DNA from: a virus
Virus record (IMG/VR): IMGVR_UViG_3300021475_000002
Span: 1 to 47,198 of that record
DNA: 47,198 nucleotides
Strand: one strand, 5' to 3'
In this document: piece after piece, positions 31,164 through 35,174 of the stretch
Position numbering within the stretch: position 1 is the stretch's first letter
Layout of the letters: each line of letters opens with the position of its first letter
Made by a program: the position numbers and the translations under genes
The notes under the pieces: generated by a model
Databases searched by the model: none
Told to the model about the DNA's origin: nothing
The model's input: only the letters and a program-made list of their open reading frames with translations

Positions 31164-32489
31164 TTAATTCACCTTGTGAAGCACGCCGTCCGGCGTCCTG
31201 AAAAACGACCCTGACGGCCCTTTCTCGCCTTCCTCGACGGTCGGAACGAGCTTGATGTCTTTCGGCTTGCTAACGACCTTCGGCGCGGGCGCGGGCGCCG
31301 GCGCCGGCGCCGGCGCCGGCGCGGGCGCCGGCTCTTCGGTTTTCGGCGCCGACGCCGCAGTTTTTAACGCTTGATCCGCAGCCGCAGCCGCAGCGGCATG
31401 GCGGGAAAGCTTACCCGAACGAAAATCGTCCGCAGCCCTCGGACTGCCGGGGTTCCTCAGAAACTCGTTGGCGGCATTAGCGTCATCGACCGTCGCGCCT
31501 AACGTCTTCGTTAATGCGTTAACACTATTGTCAAACTGCTCGCTTTCCGGGTCTGGCAACGATTCATCAAGCTGCGCCGAAAGGCCGCGCAACGCCGGAT
31601 CGCCCGCATACGCTTGACGGGTCGCCGCGGTGATCGCCTTCATGCGAGCGCGGATCGCAGTCATAATATCGAGGCGGTCGTTCAACCGAGTGAAAGCACC
31701 GATCCCAAAGTACGCATCCGCTTTCTTGGCCGCTTCGTCATAGATGACATCGCCAGGGGTAAAATGCCCTTGCACGACTGTGCTTCGCAAAGCCCGCAAG
31801 GCGGTCAGTTGAGCAATGGCGTCGCTGGCCTGCGCTCCGGCTTTTTGGTCGGCGAGCGCATCTTTTGCGGTCGCGCTCTGCACCTCCTGCTCGACCGGAC
31901 TACCGCCATAGACGACCGCGCCAGGACTGGCGTTTTCCGGCACACCCGGAAAATGCCGCGATGTGCCGACCGGGAGGTCGTACGGCATTTTGCGGGCTTT
32001 CTCGATCTCGCTCTGCACCAAGTCCGTGTTGCCCGGCCCGCGCGTCTGCGACTGGCCGATGTTGATGGTCGTCTTGAGCGCGTCGGGCGACATGCGCCCG
32101 GCAGCGATCTCGTTGGCGACATATTTCTCATAGGGCGTCATGCCCGCGGACGACACGACGCCGCGCCCCGCCGAGCCCCTGCCCGCCTGCGCGGCGTCTA
32201 TCGGCGGCACGGCCAGGCTTGCGGCCGTGCCGGCGACCGTCGAACCTCCCGGAGGCTGCACGTCCGCGCCGGTCGACTGAAGGATCCCCGGCGCGGCCGC
32301 GGCGGCCTGCTCGGTCAGCGGCACCTGACTCGACAGCAGACGGTTGTTCCAGTCGGCCTGCTCGCTGCGCAGGCGCAAGAGCTGTGCCTCGGCCTGCGCC
32401 TGCGGCCCGAGCCCGCTCGCCAGGCCGCCGAGAACATTGCCGAGCGCGCTCGAGGTCGCGCCGCCGTCTTGAACGTACAATCCTGGCAT
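31164..32489 (-). CDS. Internal virion protein with Pro-Ala repeat
   Basis: The 441-residue protein (MPGLYVQDGGATSSALGNVL) overlaps the upstream stop as TAATG. It is alanine- and glutamine-rich and helical. A run of about nine Pro-Ala pairs lies near residue 390, encoded by a GCGCCG-type simple repeat (31282-31332). The C-terminus contains GSFFRTPDGVLHKVN. It belongs to the group of putative ejection proteins between the tail and wall-hydrolase genes. Confidence 0.65.
   Translation of the reverse strand: MPGLYVQDGGATSSALGNVLGGLASGLGPQAQAEAQLLRLRSEQADWNNRLLSSQVPLTEQAAAAAPGILQSTGADVQPPGGSTVAGTAASLAVPPIDAAQAGRGSAGRGVVSSAGMTPYEKYVANEIAAGRMSPDALKTTINIGQSQTRGPGNTDLVQSEIEKARKMPYDLPVGTSRHFPGVPENASPGAVVYGGSPVEQEVQSATAKDALADQKAGAQASDAIAQLTALRALRSTVVQGHFTPGDVIYDEAAKKADAYFGIGAFTRLNDRLDIMTAIRARMKAITAATRQAYAGDPALRGLSAQLDESLPDPESEQFDNSVNALTKTLGATVDDANAANEFLRNPGSPRAADDFRSGKLSRHAAAAAAADQALKTAASAPKTEEPAPAPAPAPAPAPAPAPKVVSKPKDIKLVPTVEEGEKGPSGSFFRTPDGVLHKVN
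31282..31332. repeat. GCGCCG/GCGGGC simple-sequence tract
   Basis: A near-perfect hexanucleotide tract encoding alternating Pro and Ala in the internal virion protein. Such tracts can change length by replication slippage. Confidence 0.85.
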
Positions 32490-33160
32490 TAGGGTGTCTT
32501 TCCAAAACCCTTATACTTCGAAGCGAACGCACTGCCGGCCGCACTCGCCAACGTGTCGGCGACCGTGCCGGCGATGTTGCTTCCTTGAACGTAATGCAGC
32601 GGCTCCACCTGTTGAGCGACGCCGAGCGTTTGGGTGTCGCCCTTGCGAAAGTCCGACGCCAGGTTGATGTTCTCGTTCGAAGTGGACAGCGCCTGGTTGG
32701 CGGCCGCGCCCATGTCGTTGTAACCGCCGCCGTACGAAGTGATGCCTGCGAGCGCCTTGATGCGCCCCTGCGCCTCGCGCGCGGCCGACGTCACCCGCTG
32801 CGCCATGTCGGTGCTGACGTTCGTGTCGGCGGGCTCGCCGCCGAGCAGCGTGATGTTCGAATCGGGCGCCGCTGGCGACCCGGCCAACATCTGGGTGTTG
32901 AGATCGGTCGCGGCGGTCTGCTGCGCCGCCTCCTGCGACGCCGGGGAAAGCTTTTGCTCCGCGGTCGTCAGCGCCGCCGTCGCCTTCTGCCGATTGGCCT
33001 CGTCCGCTGCGGCGGCCTTGTTGGCGGCCGTGCGCTGGTAGGCGACCCAATCGTCATTCGCCTGTTTCTGGGCGTTCACCGTCTCCTGCTGGCCCATGTA
33101 GTTAACGCCCGCGGCGACGGCGCTGCCGGCAAGGGCGATGGCTGAAATCGGATCGCAAAT
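32489..33160 (-). CDS. MCDP-type internal virion protein, probable AUU start
   Basis: From an ATT codon at 33160 the protein reads (M)CDPISAIALAGSAVAAG and then VNYMGQQETVNAQKQAND, 223 residues. The CDP-initial, Gly/Ala-rich, membrane-prone N-terminus is a hallmark of a widespread family of podophage internal virion proteins. A strong GGGAGG lies five bases before the ATT, whereas the first in-frame ATG (33097) has none. The frame is closed upstream by the previous gene's stop (33178-33176), with no ATG, GTG or TTG in frame before the ATT. The rest is a helical, Gln/Ala-rich protein. It probably forms part of the DNA ejection apparatus. Confidence 0.75.
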   Translation of the reverse strand: MCDPISAIALAGSAVAAGVNYMGQQETVNAQKQANDDWVAYQRTAANKAAAADEANRQKATAALTTAEQKLSPASQEAAQQTAATDLNTQMLAGSPAAPDSNITLLGGEPADTNVSTDMAQRVTSAAREAQGRIKALAGITSYGGGYNDMGAAANQALSTSNENINLASDFRKGDTQTLGVAQQVEPLHYVQGSNIAGTVADTLASAAGSAFASKYKGFGKTP

Positions 33161-33175
33161 AACCGCCTCCCGCCG

Positions 33176-34228
33176 TCAATTGTAGTTGGTCAATTTACCG
33201 GACCCGGCGCTCGCCGGCGCCGGCGCCGGGTTCGTGGGTTGCGCGGTATAAGGATTATAAGGACTGGCCAGACCGCTCAGCGCGCTGGCGCCGCCGACGA
33301 CCGCCGGCGTGAACAGCGCCGCCGCGGGCGTCAAGGTCGGATTCTGCAGCCTGGTGGCGTTGACGCTCGACTGCGCCAGGTTGGCGGTCAAAGTCGGGTC
33401 TTCGGTGGCGTAGAGCTGATTGATCAGCGTTTCCTTGTTGCTCTGGATCTGATTCCTAAGCTCGCCGGTCTGCTTGTTGGCGTTGGCCACGATGTCCGCT
33501 TTATTGAGCGCATCCTGATAGCCGAGATCGCCCTGCGTGTCGGCCGCCATGCTCGACTGCAAGGTGCCGGCGTTCGCCAGTTTGTACCTCAAGTCCCGCT
33601 GGGCGACGTCGTATTGCCGCGCCTCTTGCGGATTATAGTAATCGAGAACCTTCTGGTTGTAAGCATTGTAAAAAGCGTCGTCGAAGCCGCCGGTGCGCTT
33701 GCCAGTGTCGGTGCTAGTCGTGACGTCGAACGGATCGCCCTGGAAATAAAGCTTTCCGTCCGGCCCCTTGAGCGCCCACGTCTTCGCCCCGGCGGCGCCG
33801 CCTGCGCCGGCGACCGGCGCCGGCGCCCCGCTACCGCCGCTATAACCCCGCCCGCTTCCCGCCGCCGCCCCGCGGTTTGCCGCCCCAAAGCTCGCCGATG
33901 AGGCGCCAGGCTGTACGGCGCCGGCGGCAGTCGGGCGCACCGCCTGCACTGCCGTGTAATCTTTGGGCACGCCAGAGGCATATGTACCTTCAGGTTGGCC
34001 GGACGCGCCCGCGTATGTGGTCAACGCTGCGCTCGGCGCCTGGAACGTCGACCAGTCGAACGGCGCCGTCTTCGTATCCATGACCGGTTGGCCATTGAAG
34101 ATCTGGTCGATCAGCGTCTGGCCCTGCGTCAAGCGGTCCTGGCGGGCGGCCTCCTTCGCATCGGCGGCGGCCGCCTGCTGCTTCTCAAAGTCGACGGCTG
34201 CAGTGTTGGAGGGGGCCGAACCGGACAT
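33176..34228 (-). CDS. Virion structural/internal protein
   Basis: The 350-residue protein starts one base after the upstream TAG. It has an Ala/Gln-rich N-terminal helix, a Gly/Ala/Ser-rich linker (about residues 95-150), then LKGPDGKLYFQGDPFDVTT, a helical YNAYNQKVLDYYNPQEARQY region and a Pro-rich end. It is not assignable to a named family. Location between acetyltransferase-like and MCDP genes is typical for a tail or ejection component of podophages. Confidence 0.65.
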   Translation of the reverse strand: MSGSAPSNTAAVDFEKQQAAAADAKEAARQDRLTQGQTLIDQIFNGQPVMDTKTAPFDWSTFQAPSAALTTYAGASGQPEGTYASGVPKDYTAVQAVRPTAAGAVQPGASSASFGAANRGAAAGSGRGYSGGSGAPAPVAGAGGAAGAKTWALKGPDGKLYFQGDPFDVTTSTDTGKRTGGFDDAFYNAYNQKVLDYYNPQEARQYDVAQRDLRYKLANAGTLQSSMAADTQGDLGYQDALNKADIVANANKQTGELRNQIQSNKETLINQLYATEDPTLTANLAQSSVNATRLQNPTLTPAAALFTPAVVGGASALSGLASPYNPYTAQPTNPAPAPASAGSGKLTNYN

Positions 34229-34714
34229 CTAAAGCGCTTTCGAAAATGCGCCGCCCATCGGCTCGAAACCAAACGAACGGAACAGATTGCAAAGGGACTG
34301 CGCCGCCGGCGAAGTCGGCGCGACGGTAGCGAAGAACGCGCACGCGTCTTCAGACTTTGCGATGTCGGCAGCGAACCAGACCAGACGCCGGCCGACCGCA
34401 CTGTGCCGATATTCCGGCGTAACATAGATGATCCAAAGCACGGCGATCGGCCGCGCCGTAAAGACGTGCATCATCGTCCAACTGATTAAGCCGACCAGCT
34501 CGCCGTCGACTTCGGCTACAACAAACGGTGTATCATCCTGCAAAACTTGCCGCCGCATTTCGCGCACGGCGCGCGGCAAGTCGAACGTCGAGAAGGCGTC
34601 AAAACCGGCTTCATGGAAAAAATCGACGCCATACTTTTCGAGCAGCGGCTCGATATCGTCGACCTTGCCGGTGCGAAACTTCAGACTGTCTCGATCAATG
34701 TCGGGTCGCGTCAT
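34229..34714 (-). CDS. GNAT-type acetyltransferase
   Basis: The 161-residue protein starts at ATG 34714, 20 bases inside the end of the preceding gene. The GNAT fold is seen in RTGKVDDIEPLLEKYG, PFVVAEVDGELVGLISW and the acetyl-CoA-binding motif A region IIYVTPEYRHSAVGRRLVWF (R/Q-x2-G-x-G/A variant), ending with LFRSFGFEPMGGAFSK. Similar genes occur in the tail regions of phages. The substrate is unknown; it may modify a virion protein. Confidence 0.75.
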   Translation of the reverse strand: MTRPDIDRDSLKFRTGKVDDIEPLLEKYGVDFFHEAGFDAFSTFDLPRAVREMRRQVLQDDTPFVVAEVDGELVGLISWTMMHVFTARPIAVLWIIYVTPEYRHSAVGRRLVWFAADIAKSEDACAFFATVAPTSPAAQSLCNLFRSFGFEPMGGAFSKAL

Positions 34715-35174
34715 GCCCTGCCGTCCGCGCACAAAGGACAAAGTCCTCGCGCCCCTGGCCGAATTGGGCGGTGACGGCCTCCTGCCGGAATCCGACCAGC
34801 TTAAGCCAGCGGATGACGGCAGCATTGCCGGCCATAGGCCGGCACTCGATACGATGAACGCCTCTGGCGTCGAGCGCCGGCAGAATATGCCGTTTCATCG
34901 CCCGCGTCACCTCGAGCGCGACCTCTTCCCAACGGTCGGTCCCCCATAACCAACCCGAGCCCAAACCCGGCCATACCGGCACGAAACCGCCGATCGCGGC
35001 CGGTTCGCCGCCGACCGTGCGCGCTTCCCACTTCGGACCGGGGATCGACCAAATCAGCGCGGACGTCGATGCGGCGTCGCCCTGAAAGATTGTGGCGCGC
35101 ACCTCGACCGCATCGGCCGCGCGCAAGTTGCCCAGCACGTACTCGAGGCCAATCATGGTCAGGCCCTGGATCAA
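34695..35174 (-). CDS. T7 gp13-like/GNAT-related virion protein
   Basis: The 159-residue protein overlaps the tail-protein stop as ATGA. It shows a GNAT-related core: EPAAIGGFVPVWPGLGSGW, LWGTDRW, EVTRAMKRHILPALDARG, HRIECRPMAGNAAVIRWLKL and VGFRQEA. This pattern is shared with the DUF2833 family that includes T7 gp13, an internal virion assembly protein. A full acetyl-CoA motif is not obvious, so activity may be lost. Confidence 0.75.
   Translation of the reverse strand: MIQGLTMIGLEYVLGNLRAADAVEVRATIFQGDAASTSALIWSIPGPKWEARTVGGEPAAIGGFVPVWPGLGSGWLWGTDRWEEVALEVTRAMKRHILPALDARGVHRIECRPMAGNAAVIRWLKLVGFRQEAVTAQFGQGREDFVLCARTAGHDATRH

Follow-up and report, generated by a model that had tools for sequence, protein, structure and literature searches.

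The window, by which we mean the whole stretch of 47,198 nucleotides analysed here (IMG/VR record IMGVR_UViG_3300021475_000002), carries tailed-phage genes for the terminase large subunit, the portal, and the major head protein, as well as genes for a DNA polymerase, a primase, and a helicase. On its minus strand, a 223-codon gene that appears to start with ATT lies between the two other genes listed in Table 1.

Table 1. Features around the putative ATT start in the window
Feature	Position	Strand	Basis
ATT, proposed start codon, read as fMet	33158..33160	-	sequence and homologous codon in relatives
GGGAGG Shine-Dalgarno element, 5 nt before ATT	33166..33171	-	sequence; duplex energy
TGA ending the upstream gene, same frame as ATT	33176..33178	-	sequence
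Codon 22, the earliest ATG in frame; alternative start lacking a Shine-Dalgarno element	33095..33097	-	sequence
223-codon gene, (I/M)CDPISAIALAGS..., probable internal virion/ejection-type protein	32489..33160	-	
Upstream gene of 350 aa starting with ATG; first base of its stop codon 18 nt 5' of the ATT	33176..34228	-	
Downstream 441-aa gene (MPGLYVQDGG...), ATG in the window	31164..32489	-	

The TGA is placed six codons 5' of the ATT, and none of the five codons in between (CGG CGG GAG GCG GTT, 33175-33161, minus strand) is ATG, GTG, or TTG; the codons after the ATT are TGC GAT CCG. The duplex between the GGGAGG leader and the 16S rRNA tail, as typed in for the calculation, has an energy of -12.0 kcal/mol. 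A UUG overlaps the AUU two bases on, and RNA folding around the start is ordinary (z -0.48). The ATG at codon 22, 63 nt beyond the ATT, is preceded by GTTAACTAC, which contains no GGAGG. The preliminary description of this locus had proposed an AUU start five bases from a strong GGGAGG, with the first ATG 63 bases further on and lacking a ribosome site. The TGA, the five codons, the GGGAGG, the ATT, and the ATG at 33097 are exactly as it gave them, and the AUU start itself is borne out by the lack of any NTG codon since the stop and by homologues from independent contigs whose corresponding codon is ATT, ATC, or ACG; these came from the comparison that it had suggested. Judged from the sequence, ATT is the only plausible start of the 223-codon gene. 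It is very probably a genuine start codon, because the conserved N-terminus of the relatives begins exactly at its position, and the protein would then be produced from AUU.

The same description called the product an MCDP-type internal virion protein. The MCDP-type N-terminus stands: the profiles of the window's subfamily (A) and of a second subfamily (B) align from residue 1 with an hhalign probability of 94 (columns 1-177). The virion role is less direct. The window protein has no match in PHROG or Pfam and no profile match to the internal virion proteins phrog_418 and phrog_805; phrog_805 is matched weakly by 3 of 20 subfamily B members (best E 0.084), and phrog_418 is matched by L089 and L092, two pattern-found loci (see below) with a strong-Shine-Dalgarno ATT and the same Cys-Asp-Pro N-terminus. 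The gene order acetyltransferase, gene, MCDP, injection-type gene, long gene, lysin is common to the window and Rhizobium phage RHph_N65, in which the gene after MCDP is annotated as a putative injection protein. From the N-terminal profile similarity and this gene order, we infer with good reason that the product is an internal virion or ejection-type protein. An AlphaFold model (mean pLDDT 44.8) was too poor for a fold search.

Homologues of the window gene

Viral contigs were scanned twice, giving 21 relatives confirmed by tblastn and thus 22 rows with the window. The homologous first codon is ATG in 14 rows, ATC in 5, and ATT in 3, so that 8 of the 22 have ATT or ATC. Two near-copy pairs from different metagenomes, L003/L006 and L010/L016, are among these eight, and their starts are ambiguous, with an in-frame ATG four codons upstream (-4) in the former and a GTG directly before the homologous codon (-1) in the latter. 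L004, L007, and L014 lack any NTG between the upstream stop and this codon; likewise, L116 and L024 have no ATG, GTG, or TTG able to serve as the start of the conserved protein. The upstream stop lies 12-15 nt before the codon in many relatives, and TAGGAGG, in which the stop overlaps the Shine-Dalgarno sequence, is often seen.

Protein conservation among the relatives starts at residue 2. In codons 2-21 of the eight ATT/ATC rows, differences at the three codon positions are 0.22/0.11/0.52, whereas in the 30 nt 5' of the codon they are even (0.53/0.58/0.51). As the third-position-rich pattern of change runs from the ATT onward, coding constraint starts there. The non-NTG start recurs among the relatives, yet it alternates with ATG, TTG, and GTG.

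No match to the window protein was found in INPHARED by tblastn, and scanning genome contigs with query A1 found nothing. When 397 genomes of the order around G011 were searched, 6 had a match, 2 of which were previously in the set. A GGAGGCG leader before ATT or ATC is common to the window, L004, L007, L014, L024, L116, L121, and L160, which belong to different subfamilies; it could have arisen by convergence or have been passed around as a small start module.

The wider family and its start codons

Scanning for the pattern GGAGG, 3-8 nt, ATH, and Cys-Asp-Pro gave 96 stretches at 79 distinct places, including diverged MCDP proteins. A crude composition filter passed 19 of the 79 ATH places, and 15 of the 19 were MCDP-like by eye. 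Ten of these 15 have no in-frame NTG upstream (L024, L034, L039, L056, L069, L079, L088, L089, L110, and L116). In the ATG version of the scan, 49 of 62 places survived this filter, compared with 3 of 51 in the AAG/ACG/AGG version; one of the three looks real (L307, with ACG at the homologous start and a TTG seven codons upstream). ATA was absent from the filter-passing ATH places, and no MCDP-like ATA start was seen; an ATA followed by TGY would contain an ATG in another reading frame.

Homology searches for subfamily B (CDPxTIAG) gave 58 viral loci and 6 in bacterial genomes, and 4 loci of a third subfamily were added, for 68 in total. The bacterial loci include prophage-like ones in Mesorhizobium sp. 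BR1-1-16, with ACG, and in the Rhizobiales assembly UEIJ01, with ATT and an in-frame GTG 26 codons before it. The homologous codon is ATG in 46, ATC in 7, ATT in 6, TTG in 3, ACG in 2, GTG in 1, and another codon in 3. Five loci (L146, L157, L162, L170, and L188), in which the Cys-Asp-Pro start was not reached or was absent, were left out later; one ATC and one ATG count fall among them, and 12 ATT/ATC and 2 ACG loci are then retained. The share of non-NTG codons is a biased frequency: ATT/ATC loci from the pattern scan went into the B query, and one of the search peptides accepted no residue but I or M in first place. In-frame upstream NTG codons are also present in L145 (TTG at -7) and L187 (GTG at -26); therefore, the starts of these two loci, as well as those of L003/L006 and L010/L016, may lie elsewhere. 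A tblastn search of INPHARED with L034 and L092 gave no match. RHph_N65, annotated with TTG at the homologous codon, is the sole annotated isolate phage found for subfamily B.

ACG, a second-position near-cognate codon, is at the homologous codon in L130 (L130:2498-2500), L184 (L184:2498-2500), and L307, and the L130 leader hardly differs from the leaders of L133 (ATT) and L151 (ATC). The close relatives L121 (ATC), L122 (ATG), L123 (ATT), L124 (TTG), and L126 (GTG) form a natural start-codon series.

Repeated changes of the start codon

Trees were built without the first residue by a quick method, and some branches are long. The subfamily A tree (23 rows) has 3 changes between NTG and non-NTG, at least 2 of which are forced by well-supported branches; the subfamily B tree (60 rows, pattern-found loci included) has 11, of which at least 8 are forced. 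Taken together, these quick trees suggest ten or more switches of the start between NTG and near-cognate codons. Belinky et al. (2017, PMC5622118), working with annotated starts, reported a single AUG-to-AUU switch in 61,358 ancestral AUG starts, whereas AUU, AUC, and ACG recur here in one gene family.

Shine-Dalgarno strength and the start codon

The 20 nt upstream of the codon were paired with the 16S rRNA tail in 79 distinct sequences. The median pairing energy was -7.65 kcal/mol for ATG (52 sequences) and -12.0 kcal/mol for ATT/ATC (21 sequences). In a homology-only set, from which the window and the ten pattern-found loci were dropped (52 ATG, 12 non-NTG, and 4 GTG/TTG), the medians were -7.65 for ATG and -10.8 for non-NTG (p = 7e-4). 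In this set, GGAGG or AGGAG occurs just upstream in 5 of 52 ATG, 12 of 12 non-NTG, and 3 of 4 GTG/TTG sequences; the window, with GGGAGG at 5 nt, also has such a strong element. Fisher's test, which ignores relatedness, gave p = 2e-9 for ATG versus non-NTG and, when rows with an in-frame upstream NTG were also dropped (9/9 versus 5/52), p = 1e-7. Relatedness was handled by the test of tree-independent pairs alone: in subfamily B, for which the set includes pattern-found rows, 6.4 pairs went the same way and 0 the opposite way (median p = 0.016, non-ATG), and in subfamily A, 2 went the same way and 0 the opposite way.

Neighbouring genes

Of 23 sequences examined, 16 contain the downstream gene (PG[IL]Y...DGG, the PGIY family); most of the others are cut short. 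Its start is ATG in 10, including the window, GTG in L014 and L015, ATT in L002 and L008, ATC in L005, and ACG in L018. L116 has non-NTG codons in both genes, ATC in the first and ATT in the second, and the idea that such starts are mutually exclusive in the two genes was therefore rejected. We also rejected a conflict of overlapping start sites as the driver of the changes: the ATG members of the MCDP family read ATG TGY, that is, the AUGUG arrangement described in E. coli (PMC9841429), and the same substitutions are seen in the downstream gene, whose ATG CCN offers no AUGUG.

Where the N-terminus was aligned, other neighbours keep NTG: the upstream gene in 18 of 18 loci, the RHph_N65-type acetyltransferase in 49 of 50, the injection-type gene in 45 of 46, and the N65 upstream gene in 37 of 37. 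An ATG lies close by in both exceptions (L172 and L135). The w_gnat198 rows, 12 of which had an aligned N-terminus without NTG, were set aside owing to an over-long reference frame. A comparison of 11 contigs (33 families in at least 4 contigs) and an ORF scan gave no convincing third family with non-NTG starts; the control is leaky and this negative is weak, since the automatic start column hit an internal Met in the MCDP family itself and so missed it, and a third family could hide in the same way. The same column counted the downstream ATT of L008 as 'near'. Four other non-NTG flags in the comparison (TCT, CTG, GCG, and CTC) were judged by eye to be misplaced columns. The ORF scan flagged 125 of 438 ORFs, mostly noise, and the only ORF (G007) beyond the two families with at least 7 supporting matches was judged to be an antisense shadow.

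Upstream in the window, 34229-35174 (minus strand) contains two overlapping open frames, the second with acetyltransferase similarity. The second seems to be called too early, with its extra N-terminus inside the first frame, and both starts need curation.

Alternative explanations

The ATT might be a real start on which nothing is tuned, the codon wandering among near-cognates under weak selection wherever the Shine-Dalgarno sequence and the supply of ribosomes are strong enough. The changes in subfamily B are indeed as scattered as those of shuffled labels (11 versus a shuffled mean of 11.1), and one small clade contains ATC, ATT, ATG, TTG, and GTG. However, the non-NTG starts seen are all in two adjacent genes, whereas the neighbouring families keep NTG, and we regard such neutral drift as possible but doubtful. 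A regulatory switch would be another reading: as in infC, AUU or AUC would tie synthesis to the ratio of host IF3 to ribosomes and thus set its timing by the stage of infection. AUU, AUC, and GUC starts are repressed by IF3 in infC and sigR (PMC5472188), but many close relatives use ATG instead, which makes this switch rather improbable.

That translation begins at codon 22 and leaves the first 21 codons untranslated is very unlikely. The ATG is in frame and is found in some relatives; however, codons 2-21 evolve as a coding sequence, codons 1-90 of L003, L004, L014, and L024 include no ATG, and no Shine-Dalgarno sequence precedes codon 22. Fusion to the upstream gene product by stop readthrough or frameshift is highly improbable. 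The best upstream open frame shares the reading frame in 13 of the 22 loci, the window being one of them, as would follow from a fixed spacing of stop, Shine-Dalgarno sequence, and start; in the other 9 the two frames differ, the stop may be TGA, TAG, or TAA, and ATG occupies the homologous codon in relatives. Finally, an ATG misread in sequencing or assembly, conceivable for a metagenomic contig, has next to no likelihood, given ATT, ATC, or ACG at the same codon with a strong Shine-Dalgarno sequence in independent contigs.

Interpretation

We favour, as the probable reading of the whole, a real ATT start whose weakness is offset by a strong Shine-Dalgarno sequence, giving a modest output of a low-copy ejection-type protein. 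In this scheme, fMet-tRNA would initiate on AUU (AUC or ACG in relatives), pairing with the AU of AUU or AUC despite the third-base mismatch, while a near-perfect GGAGG, mostly 5 nt off, would anchor the 30S subunit over the near-cognate codon. Ribosomes ending the upstream gene a few bases before would probably aid 30S loading by coupling. IF3 destabilises initiation complexes on such codons (PMC2268962, PMC5472188); therefore, output should be below that with AUG. The codon would thus lower the efficiency of initiation, and the strong Shine-Dalgarno sequence would regain part of it, so that AUG with a weak Shine-Dalgarno sequence and AUU or AUC with a strong one may be two routes to a similar modest output. 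Such output would suit a protein that each virion needs in small numbers. T7-type core proteins are present in few copies per virion. Synthesis from AUU, a modest and selected output, the ejection role, and the help from coupling are all presumed here. The repeated switching, together with the stronger ribosome-binding site, suggests that a weak start is tolerated or favoured at this position.

To our knowledge, AUU and AUC starts occur in very few genes. Non-canonical starts and their compensation by the Shine-Dalgarno sequence are already known. The infC gene, encoding IF3, has AUU as its sole start in E. coli and AUC in Streptomyces, and IF3 represses such starts (PMC5472188). The window gene resembles it in that AUU, or AUC in some relatives, would be the only start; unlike infC, which is cellular and autoregulated, it is a phage structural-type gene with a start codon that often changes, and no autoregulation is expected. 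Similarly, sigR of Streptomyces combines a non-canonical start that is conserved among species, GTC or in a minority GTT, with an extended AGGAGG-type ribosome site, and its output is lowered relative to the partner gene (PMC5472188); it differs in using GUC rather than AUU, and in sigR the effect of IF3 has been demonstrated. For GUG and UUG starts, a weak start codon is accompanied by a strong Shine-Dalgarno sequence (Belinky et al. 2017, PMC5622118). In the open-access literature covered, we found no report of recurrent AUU, AUC, or ACG starts in a phage gene family.

Gene callers limited to ATG, GTG, and TTG would shorten this gene by 21 residues, a predictable annotation error. The switching family offers a natural mutational series for the trade-off between start codon and Shine-Dalgarno sequence and for the fidelity of IF3 during infection. 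More tentatively, the start codon might be an evolvable rheostat in ejection-protein operons, in which AUU, AUC, or ACG with a maximal Shine-Dalgarno sequence would be selected repeatedly, both in the MCDP gene and in the gene downstream of it, and fix the ratio of the proteins, possibly via host IF3. If this is true, there would be a class of phage genes with near-cognate starts that gene callers systematically miss or truncate.
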